From Pedobacter aquae (GTDB lineage: Bacteria; Bacteroidota; Bacteroidia; Sphingobacteriales; Sphingobacteriaceae), in NCBI RefSeq assembly GCF_008195825.1, contig NZ_CP043329.1, positions 806,001 to 870,000 of the forward strand: a DNA stretch of 64,000 nt. The letters are read 5' to 3'. The notes below the pieces were generated by a model. The model searched no databases. It was not told the origin of the DNA and worked only from the letters and a program-made list of their open reading frames with translations. Position numbers and translations under genes: made by a program. The stretch's first letter is position 1. The number at the start of each line of letters is the position of its first letter. Shown here in pieces: positions 49,569 to 64,000 of the stretch.

Positions 49569-50471
49569 ATGAAAAACATAATATTAATCGGACTTTTTCC
49601 CATTTTGACCACATTTGGACAAGACAAAAAATGTTGCGACACATATGTTTACGAAGGCTATATTTTGACAGACCAAAATAAGAAACTCAAAATAAACCTC
49701 AATTTTTTAGTTCTTCTTGACTCTACAATGGTCGGTTCATATTATTATGACCCAAATTGGGGCTCATTGAAATTGGTAGGAAAACTAAAACCTGACTTTA
49801 CTTTCTATTTGGTAGAGCGGGACAAAACAGACAGTATTACCGGCTTCTTTGAAGGAAAGCTAAATGCAGACTACAAATTAGCAAAAGGAAAATGGACAGA
49901 CGGAAAAAAACAAAAAGTTTTCGATTTTGAAATTAAGCAAGTAATTGGAAAATCTTATTGGGACTACATAAAGAAAAATCGAGCTTTATATGAATACAAA
50001 AACATTAAGCAAGCAATTCGACAAAAACATAAAGTTTTGAGTATTGACGTAGCAAGCCAAGGGCTAAGCAAATTGCCTAATAAACTATCTCGACTTGACA
50101 AAATCGTTTCAATAAATCTATTAGGAAATCAATTTGAAACTTTCCCGACAGTTTTAAGCAAACTAACAACTCTTGACGAAATATCATTAAGTTCAAATGA
50201 ATTGACAAGTGTTGGTGCGGAAATCGGACAACTGAAAAACTTGCGAATTCTAATAATGAACAACAATCAACTAAAAGAACTTCCAAAACAAATCGGAGAA
50301 TTGACAAACCTCTTGTATTTAGAAATTGGAAACAATAAATTGACGAGTTTACCCGAAGAAATTAAGTATTTAACAAGTTTGCAAGAACTTCACATAGAAC
50401 GAAATAATTTGAGCGAAACGGAAAAACAAATAATTAAAGAACTATTGCCGAAATGTATAATTCACTTTTGA
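49569..50471 (+). CDS. Secreted leucine-rich-repeat protein
   Basis: 300 residues from the ATG at 49569, which begins a signal peptide (MKNIILIGLFPILTTFGQ). Upstream in-frame starts at 49503 and 49554 would lie inside or at the edge of the palindrome. The N-terminal half (about 25-140) has two cysteines and a beta-rich domain. The C-terminal half has about five leucine-rich repeats of 23 residues (LPNKLSRLDKIVSINLLGNQ, LPKQIGELTNLLYLEIGNNK). LRRs bind proteins; the partner is unknown. It is the sole gene of its unit. GAC-rich codon use sets it apart from the polysaccharide genes. Confidence 0.75.
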   Translation: MKNIILIGLFPILTTFGQDKKCCDTYVYEGYILTDQNKKLKINLNFLVLLDSTMVGSYYYDPNWGSLKLVGKLKPDFTFYLVERDKTDSITGFFEGKLNADYKLAKGKWTDGKKQKVFDFEIKQVIGKSYWDYIKKNRALYEYKNIKQAIRQKHKVLSIDVASQGLSKLPNKLSRLDKIVSINLLGNQFETFPTVLSKLTTLDEISLSSNELTSVGAEIGQLKNLRILIMNNNQLKELPKQIGELTNLLYLEIGNNKLTSLPEEIKYLTSLQELHIERNNLSETEKQIIKELLPKCIIHF

Positions 50472-50500
50472 CAGAAATAAGCCCAGCCGCTAACAGCCGT

Positions 50501-52301
50501 AACTGTTGCACAACTCACAAAATAGTTATATAAAATCATTTTATTAATTAAAGAAGCGTTATTTAAAGCTGATATAAGCGAGGCTCATTTTTTTTGGTGT
50601 TTTATTGTTTGTAAAAAAAGCGAGTCTCTAAAAGGCTTATTTTAGTTCAGATATAAAGGGTTTAAGAAATTAAGTTTGGTATGCTGATTTAGCTTTAATA
50701 CATCCACACTTAGGGTGTGATATTTAATTTTAGGACGAGAGAATTTCATCAATTTTTTCAGATTATAGGCCATAGCACTCATTAAGACATGTTTATTAGC
50801 GCTGATCATCCCTCTGGTGTTTAGCCGCTTCAAATTCATGAAGTTTATTAAAGTACCTAGTACAGGTTCTACCGTTCTACTCCTTATTTTACTGATAGCT
50901 TTTGCGTATAGAGGATTAGCTTTCAGTTTTTGGTGCATACGGTCGTAATAAGGTTTGTCAATACTATCCTCAATCTTTTTGAATTTTGTAGCAGCCCCAC
51001 AACAAGTGATTCTTAATGGGCAATCTTTGCAATCTGTTTCACTGCTTCTATAGCTTTTCTTTTGATAACCTTTACTATCAGTTTTTATTCCTTTGAAGGC
51101 TAATACGGCAAAATTTCCATTCTTCTTTTTACACTCATATTGGTTGCGTAGTGGATTGTATTCAAACCCTTCCCTTTCGGCTTTATATTGACCAAAATTA
51201 GGGATGTAAGCATCAATATGATGGGCTTCACAGAAGGCGAGAGCCTCACCACTGCTATAACCAGCATCAGCGGTTATTTGGTCAACAGGAATGTGATGTA
51301 TGCTTAGGTTTTGTATAGTTTGCGATAAGATGTCGGCAAGGTTTTGGCTGTCTTTATTACCAGCGCTACTAGCACAAGCGGCAGTGATAACATGGTGAGC
51401 ATCATCCACGGCAAGCTGTCCTGCATAATTGAGCTGTCTTGCTTTTCCGGGTTTGGTACTTATTTTAGCATCTGGATCAGTAGGAGAGTAATGGGTATGG
51501 TTACTGAGGTATTTAGGTCGAATAATATTTCCGTTTTCATCGACTTGTTTAGGATGATCCACATGTCCAGGCATTCCCTTGTATTCTTTCTCTTTCCAAG
51601 CATGGTGTCGCTCTACAGCCTTTTTGATACTAGCTTTAACTTTATATTCAGAGCCTTCGTTCAGCTCGTTTGCATATTGTTCTACATCGTCAATAATTTC
51701 TTTTTCTACTAAGCTATCCATACTAGCATTAGCTTTGATATAAGCACTATCTATAGCTTGACGCTTACCTCTGACCATTCCTTTTGCTATACAAAGGCTA
51801 AGTACTTTTTGAAATAATGATAGAAATACATCTTCCCCATAGAGCTGTCTTGTTCTAGAGATGGTAGAATGCCAAGGCAAAGCCTCATCTAAATCGTACT
51901 TTAAATACCATCTTACATCTAAACAATTAGCGCAGAAAGCAATAAGCTGCCTATCAGAATTGATATTATTGAGATATCCTACCAAACAAATCTTGAAGAA
52001 AACAAGCGGATCAATACTTTCTTGTCCTTCTTTACCATAGTAAGATAATGTTTCTTTATAGAGAAAATTTAAATCAAGAGTTTGTTCAAGCTTACGATAG
52101 AAATTATCAGCAGGAACCAAATCATTGATGTTAACTTGATAGATGATTTTAGGTTGAATATGTTTACGCCCTTGCATGAGTAAATATAGTAAAAATATCA
52201 TTAAATAACTGATAAACAGGTTGTTAAATAAAATTTTTCTTATTGTATTTATTGATGTAGGTATGGTATATTTGGATGGTATAGGAAGTTGTGCAACAAG
52301 C
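50501..52301 (-). mobile_element. IS1182-like insertion sequence
   Basis: About 1801 bp. Both ends carry TGTTGCACAACT as inverted copies (50504-50515 and 52287-52298), and the element is flanked by ACAGCCGT at 50493-50500 and 52302-52309, which I read as an 8-bp target duplication. Part of this match could reflect how the boundary is drawn. It contains one transposase gene on the minus strand. Confidence 0.82.
50642..52177 (-). CDS. IS1182-family DDE transposase
   Basis: 511 residues from the ATG at 52177 (MQGRKHIQPKIIYQ). A longer frame reaching 52303 runs beyond the end of the element, so it is not used. The N-terminal DUF772 domain (VPADNFYRKLEQTLDLNFLY, then SIDPLVFFKICLVGYLNNI) is followed by the DDE catalytic region (AIDSAYIKANAS, TADAGYSSGEALAFCEAHHI), a zinc-finger-like CKDCPLRITCCG and the C-terminal MNLKRLNTRG, as in IS1182 relatives. 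Full-length and apparently intact. Confidence 0.9.
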   Translation of the reverse strand: MQGRKHIQPKIIYQVNINDLVPADNFYRKLEQTLDLNFLYKETLSYYGKEGQESIDPLVFFKICLVGYLNNINSDRQLIAFCANCLDVRWYLKYDLDEALPWHSTISRTRQLYGEDVFLSLFQKVLSLCIAKGMVRGKRQAIDSAYIKANASMDSLVEKEIIDDVEQYANELNEGSEYKVKASIKKAVERHHAWKEKEYKGMPGHVDHPKQVDENGNIIRPKYLSNHTHYSPTDPDAKISTKPGKARQLNYAGQLAVDDAHHVITAACASSAGNKDSQNLADILSQTIQNLSIHHIPVDQITADAGYSSGEALAFCEAHHIDAYIPNFGQYKAEREGFEYNPLRNQYECKKKNGNFAVLAFKGIKTDSKGYQKKSYRSSETDCKDCPLRITCCGAATKFKKIEDSIDKPYYDRMHQKLKANPLYAKAISKIRSRTVEPVLGTLINFMNLKRLNTRGMISANKHVLMSAMAYNLKKLMKFSRPKIKYHTLSVDVLKLNQHTKLNFLNPLYLN

Positions 52302-52472
52302 ACAGCCGTTTTGCAAAAGCGGGGGTTTCGTGCTTCTATGACAGTGAAGTGCTAAATTCAAGCTTTGTGCATCTAATGAAGTTTAGTGCTGAAAATCCCC
52401 GCCTTCGCAAAGCGGCAAAACGTTATAGCCAATGGTAAAAAACACAGACAACATTCATAATTTGCAACTTTG

Positions 52473-58557: not shown

Positions 58558-58626
58558 ATGGCTATAACGAATAAGGTTTCGTTCTGTCTGCAAGTTCGAG
58601 AATTAAACCTTATTTGTTTTGGCTAA
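58558..58626 (+). other. Short attC-like palindrome
   Basis: ATGGCTATAAC (AAC at 58566-58568), then AATAAGGTTT, a 22-nt centre, AAACCTTATT and GTT at 58616-58618. The arms are perfect apart from one unpaired base per side. Shorter than the other four palindromes but with the same left end. Confidence 0.5.
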
Positions 58627-59331: not shown

Positions 59332-59473
59332 CTGGCTATAACAGCGGTTTGGCGTAATGGCGGGTGCAGTGCTTCGTATGACAGTTTTGTGGTAGGTTCA
59401 AGTGCAGCGCTTCGATTAAACTTTTGTGATAAAAATCCGCCACTACGCCAAGCCGCAAAACGTTACCAGCAAG
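59332..59473 (+). other. attC-like palindrome D
   Basis: Left end CTGGCTATAAC (AAC at 59340-59342), right end GTTACCAGC (GTT at 59462-59464). Arms GCGGTTTGGCGTAATGGCGG and CCGCCACTACGCCAAGCCGC pair with two mismatches in 20. The right end differs from the others and opens the unit carrying the SMC system. Confidence 0.65.
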
Positions 59474-59667
59474 CGTAGAGAACGACACGACAACAACAAA
59501 ACGACTGACTTAAAACAGAAAAAGTAAACCATTTTGACAGGTGAACACAGACATAAAAACGATACAACAAACGGACAGCGAGTAAGCCGACACTCATTGC
59601 CGACCCTTCTGTGTTTTAATTTTTTCCCCACCGCACAAAAAAAATTGAATTTCTATTGCTATCACAC

Positions 59668-59739
59668 AAATGGCACATTTGCTTTTGCCCCAACCGCACA
59701 AGCCGACCCTTCGGCAAAAGCAAAAGAGCCATTTTTTTT
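59668..59739 (+). terminator. Long hairpin with T-run just upstream of the SMC operon
   Basis: Arms of 22 bp (59668-59689 and 59713-59734) with two mismatches, core TTGCTTTTGCC / GGCAAAAGCAA, then eight T. It looks like a strong terminator 51 bp before the first SMC-system gene and may insulate it from read-through. The rest of 59474-59667 shows no supported gene. Confidence 0.65.
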
Positions 59740-59790
59740 CAACCCTACATTAAACTTTAAGGTCAATTTCATAAGTTCGTATAAATTCAA

Positions 59791-60987
59791 ATGAATACAT
59801 TTTCTAACATAAAAGAATTATTACGTGCCCTCAATGACGGACGCGACCTTCTGACAGAAATGTTTAAGAAGCGGAAATCTGCGGACTACAAATACGAATA
59901 CGCACTTGACTTAATTGAACACAACGAAAATAGAATTCAATATTTAATTGACCGTTCTGTTATACGACAAAACGGGAACAACCTTGAAATAGACGACTTG
60001 TACTTACAATTCTTTGAACAAGTTTTAGAAGCAAACGAAGAAATAAATACCTCGTACATCAATGAAAATCTTGAAAAGGTGAAACAAAACATTGACTACT
60101 ATTTCAACGAACATAACGAGCAAAGAAAGTATGAGTATTTAAGAGTAATCAAAAACACACTTCGAAAAATTGGAGTTATTACATTAAGGAATGTTGTTGA
60201 TTTAAAACGCAACATTGACAATACTTTCAAAAGCGAACCAACTTTTAAAAACAAAAAAGCCAAACTCATAAATCTTGACAATAAACGTAAAGACATTACT
60301 AAACTAATTGAACAAACTGAATCTTTAATTTCAGAAGACGACATTACATTTTTTAAAACAGCAACAGACGAAGAATTGAATAGAATAATTGTTCAATTAA
60401 AATTGCAATTACAAAAATGTACGCACAACTTAATTGAAATAGAAAGACAAGTAATTGACTTCTTAAATCAAATTCAACAACAAAGCGGTGTAGTTGAAAA
60501 GTTGCGACAAATCAAATATCTAAAAGACCAATTTAGACTTGAAGCAGAAACAGACATCAAACAAGTTATATCAATAAACAATTCGGTAATTTTTGAACCT
60601 AACCCAAGTTATCCGCTAAAACTTTCTCTTGAATACTTACAAACTAGCGAAGAAGCATTTGCGAGTATTAAGAAAATTGCACAACGACAAAAATCAGGCA
60701 TCAAGTTAAGCCAACCTGTTGCAGACATAATTTCTGACGAATATTTAGAAACCCAAATAGAAGAAGAAATTCAAATCAATTTGGAAGAAGTGAAAAACGG
60801 ATTTGTTGCCGGAAGCTATAATCTTTTTGACTTTGTAATGAATTATAAATTTGGGAAAAAAGTCACATTTGACGAACGAGTTACAATTTATTGTCAAATG
60901 GTTTCTCAATATGAAACTGTTTTTGAAATAACCGAACAGTATTCAGAAAAGGAAGAAATTGAATTTGCAATGATTTATCCAAAATAA
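59791..60987 (+). CDS. Kleisin-like subunit of an SMC system (MksF/JetA-like)
   Basis: 398 residues, mostly helical. N-terminal winged-helix-like region (MNTFSNIKELLRALNDGRDL), long coiled coil in the middle (about 90-250), then KLSQPVADIISDEYLETQIE and a short C-terminal domain. I infer the kleisin role from helical content, size, and being the first of three coupled genes before a small MksE-like gene and an SMC ATPase; sequence alone is weak. In Wadjet systems the kleisin JetA comes first and recruits the ATPase. Confidence 0.6.
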   Translation: MNTFSNIKELLRALNDGRDLLTEMFKKRKSADYKYEYALDLIEHNENRIQYLIDRSVIRQNGNNLEIDDLYLQFFEQVLEANEEINTSYINENLEKVKQNIDYYFNEHNEQRKYEYLRVIKNTLRKIGVITLRNVVDLKRNIDNTFKSEPTFKNKKAKLINLDNKRKDITKLIEQTESLISEDDITFFKTATDEELNRIIVQLKLQLQKCTHNLIEIERQVIDFLNQIQQQSGVVEKLRQIKYLKDQFRLEAETDIKQVISINNSVIFEPNPSYPLKLSLEYLQTSEEAFASIKKIAQRQKSGIKLSQPVADIISDEYLETQIEEEIQINLEEVKNGFVAGSYNLFDFVMNYKFGKKVTFDERVTIYCQMVSQYETVFEITEQYSEKEEIEFAMIYPK

Positions 60988-60991
60988 AGCA

Positions 60992-61564
60992 ATGGAAGTA
61001 CCAGCACAGACATCGGAAATATTCAAAATTCTAAGCAAAGGGCAATTTATCAGTTCTAATAGTTATGATAAAGCAATAAGCACTTTGTATAACGTGCTTG
61101 ATGATGAACAAAATTTTGAAAATCTGTACGAATACTTTTTGAACATCAATTTCATTTTAGAAAAAGGAGATGGGTATTTTTATTTCAGCAGACCTGAAAA
61201 TAAAATCGACCTTGAAAATAAAATTGACACCGCTTTTCGTTGGATTGATTATGTTGATTTTTTCAAAACCTTTGACAACTCGTTTGGTGCGGGCTACCGA
61301 TTTACGCCTTCCGAAATTTTAGTAAGAATAAAAACTGATGCGGAATTAGAAACAAAACTTGAAAGTTTGAAAAAGCATACAGGCAAAGACAATCATAAAG
61401 ATATTTTGGATAAGGCTTTAGATAAATTGATTTCAGATTCATTTGTGGAATTAGAAAATCCAATTACACACCAATACAAAGTTTTAACTTCATTCAAATA
61501 TCTTGAACAACTTATTTTAACCATTAATATCCCTGATGACGTAAGAAATGAAATTCCTGAGTAA
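60992..61564 (+). CDS. MksE/JetB-like subunit
   Basis: 190 residues, helical with winged-helix character (EIFKILSKGQFISSNSYDKA at the start; FTPSEILVRIKTDAELETKL near 105). Size and position between the kleisin-like gene (4-bp gap) and the SMC gene (17-bp overlap) match MksE/JetB. No enzyme motif. Assignment rests mostly on gene order. Confidence 0.6.
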   Translation: MEVPAQTSEIFKILSKGQFISSNSYDKAISTLYNVLDDEQNFENLYEYFLNINFILEKGDGYFYFSRPENKIDLENKIDTAFRWIDYVDFFKTFDNSFGAGYRFTPSEILVRIKTDAELETKLESLKKHTGKDNHKDILDKALDKLISDSFVELENPITHQYKVLTSFKYLEQLILTINIPDDVRNEIPE

Positions 61565-64000
61565 AATAATATTCATCAATAGTGCAGACAAATCACTGAA
61601 GTATGCCGAAGTAGATTTGGACGGAAACGTGCATTTTATAGGTACGCAAGGCGTTGGTAAAAGTACATTGTTAAGAGCAATTCTTTTCTTTTACAATGCC
61701 GACACTCAAAAATTAGGCATTCCCAGAGAAAAGAAAAACTACAATGAATATTACTTTCCATATCTAAATTCTTACATCATTTACGAAGTTCAAACTGAAA
61801 CTGGAAAGTTTTGTGTTTTATCTTTTAAGTCGCAAGGAAGAGCAGCCTTTCGTTTTATAGATTCGGAATACGATAAAAGGTTTTTCATTGACAAAGATGG
61901 TAAAGCGTTTGAAACTTGGGATAAAACAAGAGAAGCACTAGGGAAAACCGATTTCACAAGAATTATTAGCAATTACGAAGAATACCGAAACATTTTGTAC
62001 GGAAACAATAAGGGTTTACCAAACGAATTTAGAAAATACGCCCTAATTGAAAGCAAGCAATATCAAAATATTCCGAGAACAATTGCCAATGTGTTTTTAA
62101 ATGCAAAGTTGGACGCAGAATTTGTAAAGGAAACAATTATAAAATCCTTAAATGAAGAAGAAGTTAAAATTGACTTAACTACGTATTCGCAGACACACCT
62201 CAAAGATTTTGAAACAAATCTGAACGACATTAAGAAATGGACAGAAGGAAATATAGGTAATCAAGCAGAAAAAGTAACAACAACTTATTCCGCTTTGCGA
62301 TACTTAGAGCAAAAGAAAAAAGATTTGGCTTTTCAATTAGGCTATTCATTGAACAATGTTAAAGAGAAACATCCAAAGGTTCAAGAACAGCTAAACACAG
62401 AAGAGTTAAAGCGTGAAAGAGTATCAGAGAAACTCAAAGAACTTGACAACGTTTTTGACAAAAAGAAAGGCGAAATACAAAGACAGATTGGAGTTGTTTC
62501 AGAAAAATTAAAAGAAATTTCAGCTAAGAAAAAGGAATATGAAGCATTGAGAATTGAAACAATTCTTAAACGAGTTGCTAACAAACCGACATTGGATTTG
62601 GAAAAGAAAAACTTGTCGGAAGAAAGAGAAATTCTGACATCTAAATTTCTTGAAATACAAAAACGCTTCGAAGCACAATTAAATCAGTTGGAGAACCAAC
62701 TTAAAGAATTTGAAAATAACAAGCAATCAGAAAAGAATACGGTAGAGCGAAATTTTACTCATTTCAGGGAAGATTTAAATAAACAATACGAATTGATAAA
62801 TGATGAAATCCGAAAACAACACGAAGAAGAATTAAAAACAGCGAATGCTAAAGTAAAAGAAAAATCAAATGCAATTACTGATAACAAAATAAAATTATCT
62901 GAAGTAAAGCATAAACGTTTTTATGAAACTGAAATTGCAAATTGTAAAACAGATATATCCAAAATGAATTCTGCAATCACAAAAGCAGAAAACGAAAAAG
63001 AACAGGCAGACAACAAAATCAAGTCTATACAGAAAGAGTGGGAATTTGAAGAAAAGAGTATAAAGGCTGACATAAATAGAAAAATTGAACGCAAAACAGA
63101 AGAGCAAGTAGCATTCAATAAACTTATCGTTGCCATTGATACAAAAATTGAAAATAGCAAAAATTCACTTTATGGCTGGCTAAATGAAAACATTCCCAAT
63201 TGGGATAAAACCATTGGAAAAATAATTGACGAAGAAAATGTATTGTTTCAACAAGGATTAAATCCTAAAATAGTTTCCGATTCAAATTTGAATTTGTACG
63301 GAATCAGTATCGACACAAGCGAAATCAATAAAAGTGTAAAAACGGTTGCAGACTTACAAAACGAGCAAGAAGACTTTAAATCCAAGATTGAAGAAATAAA
63401 ACAATCTATTGCAAATCTTAACGCTCAATCTAATGACGAGTTAGAGAAATTGAAACGCAAATTTCAACCCAAAATTAAAGAGCAAAAGGAAATTATTCAG
63501 AATTGCGAGTACACTAAAGAAAACTGCAAAACTAAATTGGACGAACTTACAATTCGTCAAACTGAATTTGAAAAGAAGGCTAAAGCAGAACAAAAAGCAG
63601 AAATAGATAAAATTGACGCAATCATTTCTAAACTAAGTGAAGAAAAAACAAAGGCAGAAGAAGAAGTTCAGAAAATAGAATTCAGTATCACAAAAACTAT
63701 TGAAGCAAAAAAGAAAGAAAAAGAAACCAAAATAAAATCAGAGCAAGAAAAAGTATCTATTATTCTTAACCAACTTGATGAACAAACTCAAGTAGAAAAG
63801 AATAATATAAACAAGAAAGTAGAAGCAATTAAGACGAATCGAAAGAAAGAACTTGATACAAAAGGTGCGGACACAAAGAGAATTGACGAAATTGATTTAA
63901 GACTTAATGCAATTAATTCTGAATTGTCCTTTATAGAATCTAACCGAGATAAAGTTGCTGAATACAATAAAGATAAAAGAGAATTGTTTGATAAAGAAGA
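61548..64000 (+). CDS. SMC ATPase (MksB/JetC-like), 3' end missing
   Basis: At least 817 residues, open to the window end. The start ATG at 61548 overlaps the preceding gene by 17 bp; the translation begins MKFLSKIIFINSADKSLKYA and reaches a Walker A, GTQGVGKST, at residues 32-40. After a globular head part (about 1-230) there is a very long Glu/Lys-rich coiled coil (about 270-540), a hinge-like region (about 540-610, LYGWLNENIPNWDKTIG) and a second coiled coil cut by the window. The signature motif and Walker B would be downstream. This is the SMC layout. In Wadjet the complex traps plasmid DNA for cleavage by JetD; in housekeeping MksBEF it organises the chromosome. Confidence 0.82.
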   Translation, partial: MKFLSKIIFINSADKSLKYAEVDLDGNVHFIGTQGVGKSTLLRAILFFYNADTQKLGIPREKKNYNEYYFPYLNSYIIYEVQTETGKFCVLSFKSQGRAAFRFIDSEYDKRFFIDKDGKAFETWDKTREALGKTDFTRIISNYEEYRNILYGNNKGLPNEFRKYALIESKQYQNIPRTIANVFLNAKLDAEFVKETIIKSLNEEEVKIDLTTYSQTHLKDFETNLNDIKKWTEGNIGNQAEKVTTTYSALRYLEQKKKDLAFQLGYSLNNVKEKHPKVQEQLNTEELKRERVSEKLKELDNVFDKKKGEIQRQIGVVSEKLKEISAKKKEYEALRIETILKRVANKPTLDLEKKNLSEEREILTSKFLEIQKRFEAQLNQLENQLKEFENNKQSEKNTVERNFTHFREDLNKQYELINDEIRKQHEEELKTANAKVKEKSNAITDNKIKLSEVKHKRFYETEIANCKTDISKMNSAITKAENEKEQADNKIKSIQKEWEFEEKSIKADINRKIERKTEEQVAFNKLIVAIDTKIENSKNSLYGWLNENIPNWDKTIGKIIDEENVLFQQGLNPKIVSDSNLNLYGISIDTSEINKSVKTVADLQNEQEDFKSKIEEIKQSIANLNAQSNDELEKLKRKFQPKIKEQKEIIQNCEYTKENCKTKLDELTIRQTEFEKKAKAEQKAEIDKIDAIISKLSEEKTKAEEEVQKIEFSITKTIEAKKKEKETKIKSEQEKVSIILNQLDEQTQVEKNNINKKVEAIKTNRKKELDTKGADTKRIDEIDLRLNAINSELSFIESNRDKVAEYNKDKRELFDKE

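Follow-up and report, generated by a model that had tools for sequence, protein, structure and literature searches.

A putative Wadjet-like immune operon within one integron-like cassette of Pedobacter aquae

What is encoded by a structural maintenance of chromosomes (SMC) gene cluster that is cut off by the end of a stretch of Pedobacter aquae DNA, and does it belong to the chromosome or to a mobile array? The stretch (here, the window) comprises 64,000 nucleotides, C1:806001-870000 of a 3.85-Mb single-contig genome, and window coordinates are C1 positions minus 806000. An earlier note, made from the window alone, had described a kleisin-like, an MksE-like and an SMC gene in tight order behind an attC-like palindrome, and had proposed an integron-borne defence system that would be Wadjet if a JetD-like gene came next. 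Following the locus past the window, we find four genes in one operon, enclosed in one cassette. We consider it probable that they form a complete four-subunit Wadjet-like immune system, carried on a single mobile cassette of an integron-like array, which by analogy would restrict plasmids.

Gene A (59791-60987, plus strand) encodes a 398-aa predicted kleisin (JetA/MukF/MksF-like), gene B (60992-61564, plus) a 190-aa KITE subunit (MksE/JetB/MukE-like) and gene C (61548-64000, plus, continuing past the window; L002:2549-6235) an SMC ATPase (JetC/MksB-like) of 1228 aa in full. Directly after gene C, past the window, lies gene D (L002:6235-7086, equal to C1:871234-872085), whose 283-aa JetD/MksG-like Toprim product is the fourth component that had been anticipated. 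The spacing is as first described, with a 4-bp gap between A and B and a 17-bp overlap of B and C; C and D overlap by 1 bp at the SMC stop. The distance from palindrome D (GTT at 59462-59464) to gene A, earlier put at about 330 bp, measures 326 bp. This A-B-C-D order is that of JetABCD/MksFEBG.

Gene B matches Pfam MksE (E = 3e-43), and almost the whole of gene C matches DUF3584 (E = 3e-62). Conserved motifs in the SMC protein are the Walker A GTQGVGKST, the signature NVGSEGTD and the Walker B HCMMDEIGKL (DEIGKL region). On account of this Walker A the earlier note had thought the SMC family divergent, but the motif is not unusual: it satisfies GxxGxGK[ST], and canonical Bacteroidia JetC proteins mostly carry GxxGSGKST too. 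Gene A has no Pfam match. Its AlphaFold model (mean predicted local distance difference test score, pLDDT, 76) returns MukF (9gm7_C) as rank 1 in Foldseek and JetA of the solved JetABCD complex (8q72_E) as rank 2. Because unrelated helical bundles score equally high against this model in VIA-align, we base the kleisin assignment on the Foldseek rank, the predicted winged-helix-like ends and the position in the operon.

Gene D matches DUF7281 (E = 1e-10). The PADLOC JetD match of the single protein is weak, and JetD profiles match 36 of 40 members of the gene D family (best E = 7e-10). Profiles of the four subunits retrieved no true relative from PDB sequences, and we therefore turned to structure comparison. 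The predicted structure of gene D (mean pLDDT 86.5) was compared in VIA-align over residues ~100-283, where the best match is MksG of Corynebacterium glutamicum (8b7f; Z 11.9, 154 residues), followed by topoisomerase VI-A and then by JetD of Pseudomonas aeruginosa (7til; Z 10.4). Residues 1-95 match small winged-helix proteins only. Five residues are invariant across 40 relatives (E152, D202, D204, Q277 and E278); their aligned counterparts in canonical Bacteroidia JetD are the likewise invariant E254, D298, D300 and EQE. For MksG, residues of these kinds have been reported as well (E236, D279, E349 and E351; PMC10123090).

A scan of 84,980 genomes, starting from gene D, gave 80 loci, of which 61 hold intact operons of four open reading frames (ORFs) in A-B-C-D order. 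The exact 17-bp B/C overlap is retained in 54 of these 61, and with so many operons of the same order and overlap a chance origin of the layout is ruled out. The hosts are nearly all Bacteroidota, with a few in Desulfuromonadales, Nitrospirae, Chloroflexi and Melioribacter and one archaeal metagenome-assembled genome (MAG). Ratios of nonsynonymous to synonymous substitution (dN/dS) are 0.06-0.11 in comparison with loci L007 and L008, values that indicate purifying selection. Small ORFs are inserted between operon genes at three loci (L007:5183-5720, L009:1765-2290 and L032:5818-6350). At two of them the insert, between A and B, is flanked by CACGAAT-type repeats and holds what we take to be a GxxExxY-like ORF; in L032 it lies between B and C and is presumably DUF1016-like. 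One rearranged relative (L085:73-2129) has genes D and A facing each other, with B and C missing at the locus.

Distribution near home is patchy. Gene D was found in none of 17 same-genus genomes and in 2 of 42 other relatives (own genome excluded in both); among about 395 further Bacteroidia, nine match, two of them partially, and the operon is absent from ~97% of those sampled. The P. aquae genome carries a separate, full housekeeping Smc gene. Such a pattern marks the operon as an accessory system and does not fit a housekeeping condensin; presence at the same place in all relatives was what the earlier note had named as evidence against its proposal. Gene D relatives were absent from the phage records and viral contigs searched and occur on four plasmids only, at 35-41% identity.

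The operon sits in a unit of 6968 bp that starts at 59463, inside the GTT of the attC-like palindrome D (59340-59464, plus strand; R'' TATAAC, R' GTTACCAGC), runs to the window end at 64000 and continues for 2430 bp to C1:872430. Its past-window part holds the SMC 3' end, gene D, a second copy of a hairpin described below (L002:7097-7162) and a closing attC-like palindrome (L002:7310-7433, extended coordinate 66309-66432), the very site the earlier note had expected after 64000. The two ends of this plus-strand unit, GTTACCAGC and GCTGGTAAC, are reverse complements, as the complementary-end rule of integron gene cassettes prescribes. Neighbouring units have complementary ends of their own that differ from these (ATAGCCA, ATAGCCA, AGTAGCC and ACCACCA; 7/7 each), and so does the unit from 67226 to 68008 (GTTATAGCC/GGCTATAAC). 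Past position 64000 the array goes on with at least three more units, so the SMC cassette is not its last, contrary to the earlier note.

The integron R box consensus is GTTRRRY, and the R boxes seen here (GTTACCAGC, GTTATAGCC, GTTAGTAGC, GTTACCACC and GTTAGCGGC) deviate from its strict form. Two further observations concern sites in the array. An insertion sequence at 50471-52424, whose transposase-like ORF lies on the minus strand (50642-52303), seems to have interrupted an attC-like site that belongs to a neighbouring cassette. A short palindrome starting GGCTATAAC lies at 58566-58618, between a carbonic anhydrase gene and the next gene, and is possibly a degenerate or truncated site.

Comparison with relatives gives evidence, from sequence, that the operon was transferred between orders with junctions at attC-like sites. 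In Shiella aurantiaca (Cytophagales; L019) the DNA is 97% identical from 59458 to 66450, which is exactly one cassette, and outside this homology lie a different upstream attC-like site and other cassettes. Since a copy so similar stands between different cassettes in another order, the four genes of this large machine seem to move together as one unit. Divergent operons lie in cassettes of their own, with other but again complementary end sequences, in Nonlabens (L057), Chitinophagales (L031) and Flavobacteriales (L008). The ~8-kb cassette of L031 (248-8493) joins the Wadjet-like operon to DUF6088/AbiEii genes, and the ~10-kb cassette of L008 (2551-12508) joins it to two unknown genes. In total, 11 cassette-end matches were observed in relatives, against a mean of 0.4 and a maximum of 2 in shuffled sequences; L019 contributes four on each strand, the sites being near-palindromic. 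Most relatives lie outside detectable cassettes: the count inside them is 5 of 69 operon loci, window included, a lower bound from a crude detector tuned to this array type.

Among the proteins of this genome, the one that best matches integron integrases is a 348-aa tyrosine recombinase, encoded at C1:676387-677433 (L087:1276-2322; also L094). It scores 200 bits against integrase_gron (cut-off 265), skipping profile positions 179-238, and 218 bits against recomb_XerA_Arch (cut-off 220). Immediately downstream of its gene, on the same strand, lies another attC-like array. The SMC array is ~180 kb away, with no recombinase of that kind in the stretch examined. Orthologues at 40-48% identity (next best 28-39%) were found in all five genomes tested, the four cassette-bearing ones and L023. 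They adjoin arrays co-directionally in Shiella and in the Flavobacteriales MAG; in L174 the nearby attC-like sites lie on the opposite strand, and L177 and L178, both of which reach contig ends, showed none. Because the recombinase, by these profiles, is not a canonical IntI, we call the array integron-like. The attC-like palindromes and complementary ends bear out the integron-like setting proposed earlier; the R boxes depart from the strict consensus, and the candidate recombinase falls below the IntI cut-off, although it and some of its orthologues adjoin such arrays.

How closely does the system resemble those already known? Wadjet type I (JetABCD; MksBEFG of C. glutamicum) shares with it the order kleisin-KITE-SMC-Toprim, the Toprim fold, the acidic residues and the tight spacing. 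The Pfam content differs: none, MksE, DUF3584 and DUF7281 here, compared with DUF3375, DUF4194 plus MksE, AAA_29 plus SbcC_Walker_B, and DUF3322 plus JetD_C in type I. Relative to type I, gene D is also ~100 aa shorter and lacks DUF3322, the kleisin is ~80 aa shorter, and the operon is cassette-borne. None of the type I families DUF3375, DUF4194, AAA_29/SbcC_Walker_B, DUF3322 and JetD_C reaches its cut-off in the present system. PF09983, with which the canonical comparison set of Wadjet loci from other Bacteroidia was found, has no match in the P. aquae genome at E 1e-5. The one common family is MksE, which covers gene B, canonical JetB and Escherichia coli MukE. Hidden Markov models built from the present family hardly detect the canonical subunits. 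When profiles of A and B were compared with those of type I JetA/JetB and E. coli MukF/MukE, no usable match emerged, and the matches of the SMC profile were weak or dominated by coiled coil.

PADLOC profiles draw a similar picture. JetA matches none of 39 members, JetB matches a few, and JetC1 matches 23 of 25 SMC members at low scores, the match of the window's own SMC being confined to the P-loop region. Among the type II and III profiles, JetD3 matches 14 of 40 gene D members (best E = 3e-6), JetD2 matches 2 of 40, and JetC3 matches only weakly (E 0.02 to 9). The system is, judged by its sequences, Wadjet-like but outside type I. The earlier proposal of Wadjet is therefore borne out in gene order and in the JetD/MksG-like Toprim protein, and has to be qualified as to type. 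Integron gene cassettes with anti-phage systems have been described (Darracq 2025; Kieffer 2025; reviewed in PMC12409362). Like these, the present cassette has complementary ends and holds putative defence cargo between attC-type sites; unlike these, it packs four genes and 7 kb into one cassette, occurs in Bacteroidota and is associated with a non-canonical recombinase.

Several observations weigh against our interpretation. The DUF3322 domain that forms the N-terminal ~190 aa of type I JetD is missing from gene D, where a winged-helix region of ~95 aa takes its place; this shorter N-terminal part could provide another way of holding the nuclease inactive or of recruiting it. The hhalign probability for gene D versus canonical JetD is 11%, and genes A, B and C show no clear sequence similarity to type I JetA, JetB and JetC beyond the MksE link. 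The dN/dS of gene D relative to L019 is 0.52, a value derived from few changes. Finally, many integron cassettes are silent.

These points leave room for other accounts of the operon. It might be an auxiliary condensin of the MksBEF type, devoted to chromosome organisation, which acquired a Toprim subunit and plays no part in immunity. The MksE-family KITE subunit, a family that also takes in E. coli MukE, and the MukF-like kleisin fold are what such a condensin would share with MukBEF/MksBEF. Those complexes, however, have no Toprim nuclease, and MukBEF is a housekeeping complex, whereas the present operon is patchy and mobile, having moved between orders in a cassette. The locus is neither a three-gene complex without a nuclease nor the genome's housekeeping condensin, since the Toprim gene directly follows the SMC gene and Smc is encoded separately; identity with housekeeping MukB/MksB was rejected on that separate Smc and on the operon's absence from all 17 same-genus genomes, to which its absence from ~97% of sampled Bacteroidia adds. 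All 61 intact operons have the Toprim gene, although the search began from it. We regard an auxiliary condensin as unlikely. An SMC-based defence aimed mainly at phage DNA or at another DNA structure, in a role nearer to Lamassu than to anti-plasmid Wadjet, seems to us just as improbable. The SMC proteins have PADLOC matches to LmuB and AriA, the reduced nuclease arm means that the trigger could differ, and one relative's cassette carries an AbiEii-like gene. Those LmuB and AriA matches are nevertheless weak and limited to few members, compared with 23 of 25 for the JetC profile, and a kleisin, a KITE subunit and a JetD-type Toprim protein are features of Wadjet, not of Lamassu.

The array itself has also to be weighed. 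If the palindromes were unrelated repeats, the operon could have moved by other means, such as homologous recombination between repeats, and the off-consensus R boxes and a candidate recombinase that falls under the IntI cut-off would be explained. Such repeats would not be expected to delimit consecutive units each with its own complementary ends, to yield 11 end matches in relatives where shuffling gives 0.4, to be adjoined by the same recombinase in several genomes, or to end the Shiella homology at exact junctions. We hold this account to be more doubtful still, and retain a mobile cassette of an integron-like array as the setting of the operon.

The cassette carries one further element, a two-stem hairpin in its 5' leader (59667-59735, plus strand; fold z = -5.6), with outer stem CAAATGG/CCATTTT, an internal loop and inner stem TTTGCTTTTGCC/GGCAAAAGCAAA. 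Besides the copy near the closing palindrome, others lie at C1:697117, 1002386, 1015665, 1133553 and 1447897 (minus strand). All six strict copies in the genome are within 120-340 bp of an attC-like site on the same strand, and a reversed-pattern control gave none. The motif CACATTTG-N30..58-CAAAAGAG is common among 60 relatives (control, 4 matches); its inner and outer stems covary across genomes while the internal loop stays fixed, and the arms are 87% complementary, compared with 49% and 46% when shuffled. Rfam holds no match for the cassette hairpins, which may be a cassette-borne RNA or a recombination element.

How would a Wadjet-like system in such a cassette work? In type I, JetABC extrudes DNA, and a circle that allows complete extrusion is cut by JetD (PMC10586767, PMC10123090). 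By analogy with characterised Wadjet, A, B and C would assemble into a dimer of SMC motors, load onto DNA and extrude a loop from it. Once a small closed circle had been wholly reeled in, a dimer of D, with a Mg-binding Glu/Asp-x-Asp site, would cut both strands; chromosomes would escape because they are too large to be fully extruded. The anatomy of the operon fits such a division of labour, and plasmid restriction would be its presumed outcome. The tyrosine recombinase encoded elsewhere in the genome would move the 7-kb cassette between attC-like sites.

More tentatively, and with somewhat less than even confidence, we suggest that the operon represents an unclassified Wadjet lineage whose nuclease is shortened and whose subunits fall outside the type I families, and that this lineage spreads through Bacteroidota in the form of one very large cassette. 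The integron-like platform that moves it would have a recombinase in which part of the IntI profile is missing. Since a cassette, once excised, is a small DNA circle, the system may also control the traffic of cassettes in the array that carries it. Large multigene systems have been reported to be absent from integrons; if our interpretation is right, an SMC immune machine of four genes can nonetheless move as one cassette, and the known Wadjets would gain a lineage barely detected by the defence profiles tested. The finding also draws attention to cassette arrays in Bacteroidota, a group in which searches for integrons had turned up almost none (PMC9024848). It would set up a conflict, since Wadjet destroys substrates of the kind that excised cassettes, as circles of 1-10 kb, represent.
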